Source: Rheinheimera sp. A13L (GTDB lineage: Bacteria > Pseudomonadota > Gammaproteobacteria > Enterobacterales > Alteromonadaceae). Taken from it: a stretch of 64,000 bases of DNA. The DNA lies in NCBI RefSeq assembly GCF_000217935.1, contig NZ_AFHI01000067.1:62001-126000 (forward strand), written 5' to 3'. The notes under the pieces were generated by a model that made no database searches, was not told the DNA's origin, and saw only the letters and a program-made list of their open reading frames with translations. Shown in pieces: positions 25,225 to 56,275 of the stretch. How positions within the stretch are numbered: the first letter of the stretch is position 1; each line of letters begins with the position of its first letter. A program made the position numbers and the translations under genes.

Positions 25225-25405
25225 ATACCCAAAGTAATTGGAGTTGCAGGGAGGCGACAAGAGCGTGAGACCCCAGGAGCATAGTTGTCCTATGTGCAAT
25301 TGGATTGACGCGAGAACTCGCCAGTCATGTCTGGCGGGTATTTTCAGAATTACTGGGGCGAGAGCTTGCAGGCAACAAAGCTGCGGCTTCAAGTACGAAG
25401 GGTAT
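25225..25405 (-). repeat. ERIC-like element, copy A, with a 55 bp internal insertion
   Basis: Imperfect palindrome of the ERIC/IRU type bounded by ATACCC (25225-25230) and GGGTAT (25400-25405). In the sense of prkB it begins one base after the prkB stop codon. Its core has the ERIC arms CCCCAGGAGCATAG and TATGTG...ACTGGGGCGAGAG. A 55 bp insertion at 25297-25351 splits one core arm and contains its own stem (CGCCAG/CTGGCG). It fills the gap between the converging speD and prkB genes. Confidence 0.85.
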
Positions 25406-26299
25406 CTACTCTAGCCAGTTAATCTGCCCCCTGGCCTGACGACGTTTAATAATCAGCTGCTCTACCAAGGGCGTTAATATCAGCTCCATGGCTAAATTCA
25501 TTTTTCCTCCCGGCACAACCAATGTATTGACCCGTGACATAAAAGCGCCATTGATCATTTGCAGGTAATAGGGGAAGTCGACATGCTTAATACCGCGAAA
25601 ACGGATCACCACAAAACTCTCATCCAAAGACGGAATATCTTTAGCACTGAAGGGGTTAGAAGTATCGACTGTAGGCACCCGCTGAAAGTTGATATGAGTG
25701 CGTGAAAACTGCGGCGTGATCTGATTCACATAGTCATCCATGCTACGCACTATGCTCGACATCACAGCTTCACGGCTATGACCCCGTTCTGAAGTGTCGC
25801 GGATAATTTTCTGGATCCACTCTAAGTTGACTATGGGTACCATGCCAATCAGTAAATCCACATGTTGGGCTACATTGTTTTCTTCTGTCACCACACCGCC
25901 ATGCAAGCCTTCATAAAACAACAGATCGGTATTGGGTCTTAAATCCTGCCATGGCGTAAAAGTACCAGGCAGTTGGTTGTAAGGCACGGCTTCATCAAAG
26001 GTATGTAAATACTGCCGTACTTTACCTGTGCCTGTTTCGGCATAGCTGGAGAACAGAGACTCAAGCGCGGCAAAGTCGTTGGCTTCAGCACCAAAATAGC
26101 TGATATGTTTGCCTTGCTCTTTGGCTTTACGGATCTCCAGATCCATTTCTGGTCTGCTGTATTTGTGAAAACAATCCCCTGCAACAAAACCGGCATCAAT
26201 ACCAAGGCTGCGGAATATATGGGAAAAGGCACTCATAGTAGTGGTTGTGCCAGCACCTGAGGAGCCTGTGACCGCAATGATGGGATTTTTGTGAGACAT
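25406..26299 (-). CDS. prkB: Phosphoribulokinase-like protein PrkB
   Basis: P-loop kinase of the phosphoribulokinase/uridine kinase family. The P-loop is GSSGAGTTT at about 12-20. YEGLHGGVV near 129 and HVDFPYYLQMI near 240 are typical of the PrkB branch. The length of 297 residues is near the E. coli protein (289). No RuBisCO gene is present, so carbon fixation is not implied, and the physiological substrate in such bacteria is uncertain. It is divergent from the TolB-like gene and its stop codon adjoins an ERIC element. Confidence 0.9.
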   Translation of the reverse strand: MSHKNPIIAVTGSSGAGTTTTMSAFSHIFRSLGIDAGFVAGDCFHKYSRPEMDLEIRKAKEQGKHISYFGAEANDFAALESLFSSYAETGTGKVRQYLHTFDEAVPYNQLPGTFTPWQDLRPNTDLLFYEGLHGGVVTEENNVAQHVDLLIGMVPIVNLEWIQKIIRDTSERGHSREAVMSSIVRSMDDYVNQITPQFSRTHINFQRVPTVDTSNPFSAKDIPSLDESFVVIRFRGIKHVDFPYYLQMINGAFMSRVNTLVVPGGKMNLAMELILTPLVEQLIIKRRQARGQINWLE

Positions 26300-29233: not shown

Positions 29234-29360
29234 AATACCCTAAGTAATTGATGTTGCAGTTAGGCGACAAGCCAGCGAGACCCCAGGAGCATAGTAGTCC
29301 TATGTGACTGGGGCGAGAGGCGAAGTCAACAACACTGCGGCTTCAAGTACGACGGGTATT
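29234..29360 (-). repeat. ERIC-like element, copy B, overlapping the purD 3' end
   Basis: A 127 bp imperfect palindrome, the canonical ERIC length, bounded by AATACCC and GGGTATT. The core matches the ERIC consensus arms (CCCCAGGAGC and GTGACTGGGG). Its end at 29343-29360 encodes the last five residues and the stop of purD. It is oriented with the CTTGAAGCCGCAG side towards the gene, as in the other copies. Confidence 0.88.
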
Positions 29361-30638
29361 TTCGCGGGCGATGGCGCGATAGCCTATATCCCGGCGACTA
29401 AATACACCGTCCCACTGCACCTTGTCAGTCAGCTCATAGGCTGCTTGTTGTGCCGCAGTGACATTCACGCCCAAAGCTGTGGCGCACAGTACACGACCGC
29501 CAGCTGTCAGTACCTGACCCTCTTTTAACACAGTACCAGCATGGAATACTTTGGCTTCACGGCTGTCTTCTGTAGGTAAACCAGAAATAACATCACCTTT
29601 GCGGTAATCATCCGGGTAACCACCAGCGGCCAGCACTACACCTACAGCGGCGCGGCTGTCGAATTTAATCTCTTGTTGGGCTAATTTGCCTTCCACAGCA
29701 GCCTGACACAGCTCCACTAAATCGGACTGTAAACGCATCATAATAGGCTGAGTTTCAGGGTCACCAAAACGGCAGTTAAATTCCAGCACTTTACAGGTGC
29801 CATCAGGTGAGACCATCAGGCCTGCATAAAGGAAACCTGTATAGATATGACCTTCAGACGCCATACCATTCACTGTTGGGTAAATGACGTTTTGCATCAC
29901 CCAGTCATGCACGGCAGGAGTTACTACCGGCGCTGGCGAATAAGCACCCATACCGCCGGTATTTGGACCTTTGTCGCCATCATCACGGGCTTTATGATCC
30001 TGAGATGAAGCAAAAGCCAAAGCGTGAGTGCCGTCAACCATCACAATAAAGGAGGCTTCTTCACCTGTTAAAAACTCTTCAATCACCACACGGCTGCCAG
30101 CAGAGCCAAACTTGTTGCCAGCAAGCATATCGTCAATAGCAGCAAAAGCTTCAGCTTCAGTCTGGGCGATAATCACACCTTTGCCTGCAGCTAAACCATC
30201 GGCCTTGATCACAATAGGAGTGCCATTGGCTTTGACATAAGCCTTTGCGGGCTCTATCTCAGTAAAGTTGGCATAAGACGCTGTTGGAATTTTATGACGG
30301 GCTAAAAAGTCTTTAGCAAAAGCTTTAGAGCTTTCTAACTGAGCAGAGGCCTGGGTCGGGCCAAAAATAGCCAGACCCTGCTGACGGAAGGTATCAACCA
30401 CACCTTTGGCCAGTGGTGCTTCAGGGCCCACTATAGTCAAAGCTATGCCTTCGCTTTTGGCAAAAGTGGTCAACGCTTGCACATCTTCTGCTGCTATAGC
30501 CACGTTAGTCAGGTTGGCTTCGAGCGCAGTACCTGCGTTGCCCGGAGCTACAAAGACTTGTGTGACATGAGCCGATTGTGCTGCTTTCCATGCCAGAGCA
30601 TGTTCACGACCACCACCACCTATTACTAATACTTTCAT
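29343..30638 (-). CDS. purD: Phosphoribosylamine-glycine ligase (GAR synthetase)
   Basis: ATP-grasp enzyme that joins glycine to phosphoribosylamine, the second step of purine synthesis. It opens with MKVLVIGGGGREHALAWK, has the ATP-grasp segments KADGLAAGKGVI near 146 and MGAYSPAP near 231, and EFNCRFGDPETQ near 285 with metal-binding Glu and Asn. From the ATG at 30638 it is 431 residues, like E. coli PurD (429). A TTG at 30659 would add seven residues, but the conserved start is MKVLVIG. The last five residues (NTRRT) and the stop are read from an ERIC element, so the C-terminus is strain-specific. The gene purH is not adjacent. Confidence 0.96.
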   Translation of the reverse strand: MKVLVIGGGGREHALAWKAAQSAHVTQVFVAPGNAGTALEANLTNVAIAAEDVQALTTFAKSEGIALTIVGPEAPLAKGVVDTFRQQGLAIFGPTQASAQLESSKAFAKDFLARHKIPTASYANFTEIEPAKAYVKANGTPIVIKADGLAAGKGVIIAQTEAEAFAAIDDMLAGNKFGSAGSRVVIEEFLTGEEASFIVMVDGTHALAFASSQDHKARDDGDKGPNTGGMGAYSPAPVVTPAVHDWVMQNVIYPTVNGMASEGHIYTGFLYAGLMVSPDGTCKVLEFNCRFGDPETQPIMMRLQSDLVELCQAAVEGKLAQQEIKFDSRAAVGVVLAAGGYPDDYRKGDVISGLPTEDSREAKVFHAGTVLKEGQVLTAGGRVLCATALGVNVTAAQQAAYELTDKVQWDGVFSRRDIGYRAIARENTRRT

Positions 30639-30689
30639 CGTCAGTCTCGCCCTAATCAAAAAATATCAAAAACTAAAAAATCAGTGTGA

Positions 30690-38854: not shown

Positions 38855-39286
38855 ATGGCTTTAGAACGTACTTTTTCAATCGTAAAACCAGATGCAGTAG
38901 CTAAGAACCATATCGGTGCTATCTACCACCGTTTTGAATCTGCAGGTTTACGTATCGTTGCTGCTAAAATGCTGCACTTAAGCCAGGAACAAGCTGAAGG
39001 CTTCTACGGCGAGCACAAAGAGCGTCCATTTTTCAACGCTTTAGTATCTTTCATGACTTCTGGCCCGGTAATGGTTCAGGTTTTAGAAGGCGAAGACGCT
39101 GTTCGTAAAAACCGTGAAATCATGGGTGCTACTAATCCAAAAGACGCTGCTGCCGGTACTTTACGTGCTGATTACGCTGCAAGCATTGACGAAAACGCTG
39201 TTCACGGTTCAGACGCTGCTGCTTCTGCTGCCCGTGAAATCGCGTTCTTCTTCACTGAAGCTGAATTGTGTGCCCGTACTCGTTAA
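38855..39286 (+). CDS. ndk: Nucleoside diphosphate kinase
   Basis: Balances nucleoside triphosphate pools by phosphate transfer through a catalytic His. It opens [17 protein letters not shown] and the active-site His is in [20 protein letters not shown] near 117. The length of 143 residues is exactly typical. An ACAGGAG ribosome site precedes the ATG. An ERIC element begins three bases after the stop and a terminator lies beyond it. Confidence 0.98.
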
Positions 39287-39288
39287 TT

Positions 39289-39411
39289 AAACCGTCGTTC
39301 TTGAAGCTGCAGCTTCGTTGACCGCGCGCTTTCGCCCCAGTCACATAGTGAACTATGCTCCTGGGGTCTCAAGCACTTGTCGTCTCGCTGCAACTCCAAT
39401 TACTTAGGTTT
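39289..39411 (+). repeat. ERIC-like element, copy C, after ndk
   Basis: A 123 bp imperfect palindrome bounded by AAACC and GGTTT. It shares the core arms CGCCCCAGTCACATAG and CTATGCTCCTGGGGTC with the other copies and has the same orientation relative to its upstream gene. It has diverged most at the ends, yet the terminal arms still pair. Confidence 0.85.
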
Positions 39412-54537: not shown

Positions 54538-54569
54538 ATTCGTTCGACATTTGTTACTACAAGGTGATT

Positions 54570-56147
54570 ATGAGCAAAAACATTCACTTCCATCGAATTT
54601 TAATCCTCGACTTCGGTTCGCAATATACTCAGCTGATCGCCCGTCGTGTGCGTGAAATTGGCGTTTACTGTGAGCTGTGGGCATGGGACGTTACTGCTGA
54701 ACAAATCGCTGAATTTGCTCCAACCGGTATTATTTTATCCGGTGGTCCTGAAAGTGTGACCGAAGCCGGTTCACCTCGTGCTCCTTCTTATGTATTTGAA
54801 GCCGGTGTGCCTGTACTGGGTGTGTGCTACGGCATGCAAACCATGGCTGAGCAACTGGGCGGTAAAGTGTCTGGTTCTGAGCATCGCGAATTTGGTTATG
54901 CCCAGGTTGAGCTGATTGCAGAAAATGCCATGTTCACCGGTATTGAAGATCATCTGAACGAACAAGGCCACGGCTTACTCGATGTCTGGATGAGTCATGG
55001 TGACAAAGTAGTACAAATCCCAGAAGGTTTTGTCACTACAGCGCAAACGCCAACTTGCCCTCATGCTGCTATGGCAGACGAAGCCCGTCAGTTCTATGGC
55101 GTACAGTTTCACCCTGAAGTGACTCACACCCGTCAGGGCCTGCGTATGTTAGAGCAGTTTGTGGTCGATATCTGTGGTTGTGAAAAACTCTGGACTCCGG
55201 CCACCATTATTGACGACGCTATTGCCAATATCAAAAAGCAGGTCGGTGATGATCAGGTCATTTTAGGTTTATCCGGTGGTGTCGACTCTTCCGTTGTGGC
55301 TATGTTATTACACCGCGCTATAGGTAAAAACCTGACTTGTGTATTCGTCGATAACGGCTTATTGCGTTTAAACGAAGGCGCTCAGGTGATGGATATGTTT
55401 GGTGATCATTTTGGTCTGAACATTATTCATGTGAAAGCTGAAAACCGTTTCCTCGACGCCTTAAAAGGTGAAGCAGAACCTGAAGCCAAACGTAAAATTA
55501 TCGGTCGCGTATTTGTTGAAGTATTTGACGAAGAAGCGAAAAAGCTAAGCAACGCTCGTTGGTTAGCTCAGGGCACTATTTACCCTGACGTCATTGAGTC
55601 TGCCGCTTCTAAAACTGGTAAAGCTCATGTGATTAAGTCGCACCATAATGTTGGCGGTTTACCTGCTGATATGAAAATGGGTTTAGTCGAGCCACTGCGT
55701 GAACTCTTTAAAGATGAAGTGCGCAAAGTAGGTTTAGCTTTAGGTTTGCCCTACGACATGCTGTACCGTCACCCTTTCCCAGGCCCGGGTTTAGGTGTGC
55801 GGGTATTAGGTGAAGTGAAAAAAGAATACTGTGATTTATTACGTAAAGCCGACGCGATTTTCATCGAAGAGCTGCGTAATTCAGGCTGGTACGACAAAGT
55901 CAGTCAGGCCTTTACTGTATTCCTGCCAGTGAAATCTGTCGGCGTGATGGGCGATGGCCGTAAATACGACTGGGTCGTGTCTATCCGCGCAGTAGAGACT
56001 ATCGACTTTATGACAGCACACTGGGCACATTTGCCGTATGAGCTGTTAGGTCAGATTTCTAACCGCATTATCAATGAAGTGAATGGTATTTCCCGTGTGG
56101 TGTACGACATCTCAGGTAAACCACCAGCAACTATTGAGTGGGAATAA
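54570..56147 (+). CDS. guaA: GMP synthase (glutamine-hydrolysing)
   Basis: Converts XMP to GMP. The class I amidotransferase domain (about 1-205) has the catalytic Cys in [14 protein letters not shown] near 86 and the His/Glu pair in [10 protein letters not shown] near 181. The ATP-pyrophosphatase domain has LSGGVDSSV near 235, and the C-terminal dimerisation domain ends [12 protein letters not shown]. From the ATG at 54570 the length is 525 residues, the same as in E. coli. AAGGTG precedes this ATG; a GTG six bases earlier is less likely. Two ERIC-like elements follow the stop. Confidence 0.98.
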
Positions 56148-56275
56148 TTTATCCTTCGTACTTGAAGCCGCAGCGTTGTTGACTGCGTGTTCTCGCCCAA
56201 GTCACATAGGACAACTATGCTCCTTGGGTCTCGAACACTTGTCGCCTAGCTGCAACTCCAATTACTTTGGATAAA
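56148..56275 (+). repeat. ERIC-like element, copy D, after guaA
   Basis: A 128 bp imperfect palindrome bounded by TTTATCC and GGATAAA, starting at the base after the guaA stop. The core arms are CGCCCAAGTCACATAG and CTATGCTCCTTGGGTC. The change CCCAAG/CTTGGG from CCCCAG/CTGGGG in other copies keeps pairing. Confidence 0.87.

Follow-up and report, generated by a model that had tools for sequence, protein, structure and literature searches.

The Repeats and Their Neighbours

The window, that is, the whole stretch of 64,000 nucleotides of Rheinheimera sp. A13L that was analysed, holds five palindromic repeats (copies A to E) located behind a prkB-like gene, purD, ndk and guaA. The features are as follows (interval, strand, description):

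25225..25405, + strand: ERIC copy A, 181 bp, behind prkB, right end immediately after TAG; tips ATACCC/GGGTAT, paired
25297..25351 (approximate), + strand: insert of copy A, about 55 bp, near the apex, with its own 12-nt inverted repeat
25406..26299, - strand: prkB-like gene, whose stop codon adjoins copy A
29234..29360, + strand: ERIC copy B, behind purD (- strand), right end overlapping purD by 17 bp
29343..30659, - strand: purD, C-terminal end changed by copy B compared with relatives without the element
38855..39286, + strand: ndk, TAA stop about 1 bp ahead of copy C
39289..39411, - strand: ERIC copy C, behind ndk; tips AAACC/GGTTT
54564..56147, + strand: guaA, TAA stop about 1 bp ahead of copy D
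56148..56275, - strand: ERIC copy D, behind guaA; tips TTTATCC/GGATAAA
56276..56400, - strand: copy E, in tandem behind D, with ERIC ends and an interior consisting of a GTAG..CGTC REP-like palindrome

The strand that starts with ATACCC(A/T)AAGTAATTG, or with a tip variant of it, is called here the forward strand, and its other extremity, ..TACGAAGGGTAT, the right end. In 5/5 copies of the window, the ATACCC..AATTG end is distal to the gene and the right end nearest to it, which confirms the single orientation reported by the first-pass annotation; the forward strand is thus antisense to prkB, purD, ndk and guaA in all five copies.

That annotation had listed five ERIC copies of about 127 bp, all placed at stop codons. 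Copies A, B, C and D indeed match over their full length a model derived from their own sequences (129.5, 140.2, 139.8 and 152.7 bits) and abut stop codons, the TGA of purD being supplied by copy B itself. Copy E (43.4 bits) is a hybrid devoid of the ERIC core that is positioned behind D, no stop codon adjoining it, and copy A departs from the expected length owing to an insert that is polymorphic between species. The paired change in the core of copy D and that in the inner stem of copy B are as had been claimed. In the same way, terminator-like hairpins, recognized by reading the sequence, lie beyond copies B, C and D/E, as had been proposed for purD and ndk. A comparison with Rfam gave no gathering-level match in the window. 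PrkB shows 100% identity to its counterparts in Rheinheimera sp. 1928-s and YQF-1.

Identity, Copy Number and Host Range

ERIC elements were described in 1990-91. Like the ERIC/IRU/RU-1 repeats of enterobacteria and Vibrio, the copies of the window are dispersed, intergenic, imperfect palindromes of about 126 bp with a core CCCCAGGAGC..CTGGGG. Copy C matches an intergenic repeat of E. coli with 78.3% identity over 93% of its length (E 6e-17), a match being present in 4131/5426 E. coli genomes. This repeat lies between pepB and iscX and, in two records, its right end directly follows the TAA of iscX, i.e., it shows the same orientation and the same stop-codon abutment as here. The ERIC-PCR primers have 5-9/22 mismatches in copies A to D and 11-12 in copy E, the best sites elsewhere in the window having 6 and 7; on the E. 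coli copy, they have 3 and 3. The copies of the window are real ERIC/IRU repeats, as the first-pass annotation had recognized from their letters. They differ from the known ones by their Rheinheimera host, by an identity of 78% to the best E. coli match, by the polymorphic insert of about 55 bp and perhaps by their many tip variants.

A search of the 4.52-Mb draft genome with the covariance model built from copies A to D (E<=1e-3, 150/1039 candidates scored) gave at least 115 match rows, some copies contributing a row for each strand. Within 1.02 Mb of this genome, taken around the copies and elsewhere, 113 copies, including 97 full-length ones, are distributed in 97 arrays. Most of the full copies (71/97) measure 125 or 126 bp, with a fold that spans their full length. 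Ninety-four arrays lie in no called gene and are flanked on both sides, the three others lacking a neighbour at a contig end, and thirteen arrays hold two or three copies, with a uniform orientation within each. Longer runs, each in a single orientation, were seen in another genome (G002), where six and four listed copies follow one another with a spacing that is nearly always about 125 bp (C1:693153-693904 and C1:3271866-3272542).

All 22 genomes of the genus, own genome included, have matches (3-148 rows each among 150 scored candidates per genome). When 229 sampled genomes of the class were searched, with filters made stricter and 15 candidates per genome, matches appeared in 12, own genome included; a genome of another genus of the same family has none under these settings. 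Four of the other 11 positive genomes, which belong to different families and measure 1.4-2.6 Mb, carry 4 to 31 matches. In these lineages (G050, G136, G196 and G080; loci L255-L308), the ends of the copies are similar and the stems largely divergent yet paired. The copies of one of these small-genome lineages, G050, are near-identical and apparently recent.

As regards insertion at TA with duplication of the TA, a few empty sites are clean, many others being unalignable, and copies of another lineage have TA at both ends. For ERIC, PMC2759123 describes TA at the ends and its duplication, copies fused to the 3' ends of genes, and a relative in Vibrio. Among the matches listed, no transposase or folded intermediate was found. 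A search for an autonomous partner with ERIC ends gave no compatible left-right pair among about 100 matches listed for each end (of 110 and 112). Solitary ERIC ends exist, for example at C54:2549, C69:20319 and C65:66190.

The interior of copy E relates it to another group of intergenic palindromes. The REP or GTAG- and CGTC-tagged palindromes measure 20-40 bp (PMC3733652), and such a GTAG..CGTC unit fills the interior of copy E. They have other ends as well as this smaller size, and the ERIC copies themselves are not members of this group.

Placement Behind Stop Codons

Placement was analysed with genes called by a simple script, without a standard gene finder, so that single gene ends may be wrong, and abutment was defined as a stop codon between -35 and +10 bp from the end of the element. 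In own genome, when a gene points at the element, its stop codon abuts the right end in 33/46 cases and the left end in 8/51 (Fisher P 1.8e-8); an earlier bracket of -25 to +10 gave 32/46 and 8/51. The second species studied, G001, shows the same bias (right 54/69, left 12/56, P 1.5e-10; 3/135 listed places left out, some copies being shared with own genome). A stop codon lies within 4 bp of 56.5% of right ends, 7.8% of left ends and 7.9% of random intergenic TA sites; with the wider bracket, random TA sites reach 22.4% and left ends 8/51. The 3' placement, called strict by the first-pass annotation, thus holds for copies A to D of the window and is, genome-wide, a strong and orientation-specific bias rather than a rule. 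The genome-wide covariance-model search that it had suggested gave many dispersed copies whose orientation and position are non-random.

The bias is also found outside the genus. In three unrelated lineages pooled, right ends abut stop codons in 9/20 cases and left ends in 4/33 (P 0.01), these tables comprising 23, 10 and 15 loci (15/31 matches for G196) with genes called from little sequence. Two of the three are biased (7/11 vs 0/14) and G050, with its near-identical copies, is not (2/9 vs 4/19).

Terminators are about as frequent past the element as past control genes: one lies within 80 bp past the element for 5/35 abutting arrays, a sixth case being a contig-start artefact, vs 113/685 control genes. 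For terminators next to right ends, the count is 7 vs 2 of 97 (P 0.17), which is only a hint. Furthermore, no replication-strand bias was seen in G002 (57/109 copies; 127 of 128 listed rows, tandem copies collapsed, origin and terminus placed by GC skew over 20 samples of 12 kb), which argues against a simple insertion into single-stranded DNA of the lagging strand.

In Yersinia, ERIC copies next to stop codons reportedly share one orientation (De Gregorio, 2005). The orientation named B there is presumably the stop-abutting orientation described here. Yersinia and Rheinheimera would then be alike in stop-codon placement and in having one preferred orientation.

Paired Changes and Matching Tips

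In an alignment of 91 copies, which leans towards structure because it is fitted to the model, 90.2% of cells pair and two-sided changes occur in 30/38 pairs, vs a mean of 16.3 after shuffling; the paired share drops to 31-39% in slid controls. The statistical test of covariation that had been called for thus gives values far above shuffles and slid controls. Furthermore, when 223 copies of the two species were aligned by sequence only, most of the strongest couplings between columns fell on the register of the palindrome. Some couplings join states that do not pair, namely AA with TC at 6-119, GA with TC at 26-99 and GC with TT at 51-73, as if specific mismatches were required in internal loops.

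Tip hexamers differ between copies and yet tend to match inside one copy: at positions 1-5 of 96 copies, the within-copy match is 66-97% per position vs 41-82% when shuffled. The pairing of tips is correct for copies A, C and D, and over the 96 copies it does not extend to every copy.

Changes in situ were followed in orthologous copies of own genome and its congener. Fifty-one candidate pairs were reduced to 24 by masking other ERIC copies and dropping tandem ones, then to 21 (three had no full-length copy) and, in a stricter test, to 18 (three had only one matching flank). In the 21 pairs, stem pairs changed on one side 73 times and on two sides 8 times, 5 of these between Watson-Crick states (3.4 expected from permutation, P 0.012); when both flanks are required (18 pairs), the 4 two-sided changes are not a significant excess over the 2.5 expected (P 0.24). 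Compensation in situ is clear in L221, where an A-T of site C became C-G, and in the tip of D (T-A and C-G). Changes without compensation were found at A and D, and site A shows altered right tips without a matching change in the left tip.

The Forward Strand Folds Better

The two strands do not fold equally well. The forward strand gives the better fold in 81/81 full copies under 130 bp of own genome, with a mean of -53 vs -41 kcal/mol. The same is true in four other families, for 20/23, 14/15, 7/10 and 1/2 copies respectively, and for the two E. coli records (-66.0 vs -43.4 and -61.1 vs -43.6 kcal/mol).

This asymmetry has a counterpart in mismatches. Among the minority states at mostly Watson-Crick pairs, G-T outnumbers A-C by 305:94 in two species; in the plain palindrome register, limited to the outer 27 positions, the ratios are 216:63 and 286:101. 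For the pairs of the forward-strand fold, they are 427:69 (own) and 530:69 (G001), values that lean towards G-T because the pairs were taken from that fold. Mutation alone, acting over both strands, would be expected to yield G-T and A-C alike. The wobble asymmetry is compatible with folding as RNA or as single-stranded DNA.

The abutted genes run opposite to the forward strand, so that their mRNAs carry the weaker fold. The share of A-C is similar in abutting and other copies (18/1072 vs 30/2164 in own genome, 25/1954 vs 37/2862 in G001), a test of little power because most copies are unshared and probably young, and would retain the state of their source.

Turnover Between Species

Only 24/84 single copies are common to own genome and its congener, and abutting copies are shared no more often than others: 8/28 vs 16/56 in own genome (P 1.0) and, from the G001 side, 10/49 vs 14/72 (P 1.0). 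By thirds of consensus-likeness, the placement bias is 7/12, 10/12 and 9/12 in own genome and 14/20, 18/20 and 15/20 in G001, the copies closest to the consensus showing no weaker bias than the rest. Equal sharing, joined to the bias of consensus-like copies, suggests that the bias is present early, through targeted insertion or quick sorting. Early selection and targeting give the same picture here. Relatives without the element already have the stop codon in place, L003 at prkB and L213 at ndk; for many further sites, no clean alignment with element-free relatives was obtained.

The sites of the window are themselves variable. Among 21 other genomes of the genus, the ndk site has a full copy in 4 and a shortened one in 3; L225, L227 and L228 carry another ERIC farther downstream, in the opposite orientation, and none was seen in the remaining genomes. 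At guaA, 5 of the 21 genomes have a full copy and 5 a form that is shortened or rebuilt, L235 carrying a different palindrome. In L238, L240 and L243, GTAG-type REP-like palindromes sit at guaA inside kept ERIC ends, and the rebuilt forms differ by species.

The insert of copy A is absent from the same-site ERIC of R. tangshanensis (L005) and present in that of R. mesophila (L006), so that it comes or goes independently of the copy that carries it. At C69:93785, C69:126925 and C54:27838 of own genome (G000), an insert of about 55 bp near the apex is likewise present in one and absent from another of the orthologous copies.

Another family of near-perfect palindromes, with arms GGGGTCAGA..TCTGACCCC, lies a few bp behind stop codons. 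It occupies ERIC sites of the window in relatives, at prkB (L001, L004, L007 and L077) and at guaA (L235), and was also seen in G001 at C39:375467, C33:361900 and C33:408809.

What Maintains the Stem and the Placement

About 110 copies, a concentration of right ends on stop codons, a strong covariation and a strand bias of both fold and wobble are the observations to be explained. With the better fold on the strand antisense to the gene, and with abutting copies that last no longer than others, the stem appears to serve the spread of the element rather than a device of the 3'-UTR. We consider it probable that the stem is kept for this spread, the copies being short mobile repeats that turn over fast and whose right ends are placed behind stops. 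ERIC/IRU would be non-autonomous elements spreading through Rheinheimera, whose forward strand would have to fold, as RNA or single-stranded DNA, for them to spread. This need would maintain the stem, and the paired changes of tips would originate in the mobility cycle. Insertion, or a very early sorting, would set right ends behind stops and leave the forward strand antisense to the gene. If it is transcribed at ndk, purD and guaA, the element would form the weaker hairpin there, between the stop codon and the terminator, and any effect on mRNA decay would be secondary. Several observations count against this reading: neither a transposase nor a folded intermediate was found among the matches listed, the copies of G002 show no replication-strand bias, the slight excess of two-sided changes in situ, some of them compensatory, could be explained by host selection, and the near-identical copies of G050 show no placement bias.

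It was alternatively proposed for Yersinia that the sense transcript controls the decay of the upstream mRNA through a ribosome-dependent exposure of RNase E sites, and copies could be kept in Rheinheimera as such selected 3'-UTR RNA devices. The orientation-specific placement at stop codons, the occupation of the ndk and guaA sites in several species and the small excess of two-sided changes over all pairs are in line with this, as are the cotranscription and the orientation-dependent effect on upstream transcripts that PMC2229807 summarises for Yersinia. Such a device seems rather doubtful here, since copies at stops persist no longer than others and it is the strand opposite to the mRNA that folds better, two differences from the Yersinia case. 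Furthermore, 3 genomes at ndk and 5 at guaA tolerate deletions and replaced interiors, and the low-powered wobble test shows no shift of abutting copies to the sense strand. By analogy with Yersinia, a role in decay is possible at single loci. In the earlier proposal of a selected stem, the covariation stands, and the selection placed in these 3' regions seems to agree poorly with the evidence from strand, sharing and orthologues.

Placement could also result from retention only, TA insertion being random and copies in genes or before starts being lost while those behind stops survive. Left ends are indeed no more frequent than random TA sites within 4 bp of a stop, and the other palindrome family lies 4-5 bp behind stops in the 3/3 cases found within the stretches of G001, those of own genome having yielded none. 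However, the concentration of right ends alone is left unexplained, and between co-directional genes, away from the stop, 22 copies are right-end-first vs 52 left-end-first (24-15 + 46-33 vs 29-4 + 33-6), which makes retention alone distinctly improbable. The covariation could in turn come from mutational copying, since template switching between the arms of imperfect palindromes would create it without selection on folding; it is a published source of compensatory changes in hairpins, as set out in PMC8794818, and would suit tips that match inside a copy and differ between copies. However, it gives perfect pairs and no excess of G-T over A-C such as that observed, the covariation of the register also couples non-pairing states, and the right-tip changes of site A were not copied leftward. 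As the source of the covariation it is very unlikely, although it may act alongside the spread of a folding mobile element.

Within the reading of a stem kept for spread, a more precise scheme can be drawn, which we regard as unlikely in this full form: ERIC would move as a folded single strand, RNA or single-stranded DNA, of fixed polarity and would integrate in the template strand just past the end of translation, one of its ends thus marking the ends of genes, the tip being rewritten at each round so that the ends match.

Significance for Rheinheimera and for ERIC

A search of the literature found no paper pairing Rheinheimera with the full ERIC name and, as far as we know, this genus is a new host. 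Also new, to our knowledge, are the asymmetry between strands, the test of retention, and tips that match within a copy while varying between copies. The case for a use of ERIC to its host comes mostly from Yersinia, and no machinery is known to move these elements. Rheinheimera offers about 100 copies per genome with a fast turnover, many close species and an orientation rule strong enough to be tested, and its strand signal tells which strand must fold. The other small-genome families of Gammaproteobacteria reached by the same search suggest that ERIC may have an older origin and a wider range than the name implies. We know of no targeting rule of the kind outlined above for mobile repeats that insert at TA; if the scheme of a folded strand integrating past the end of translation were true, it would provide such a rule and would identify the missing step in the mobility of ERIC.
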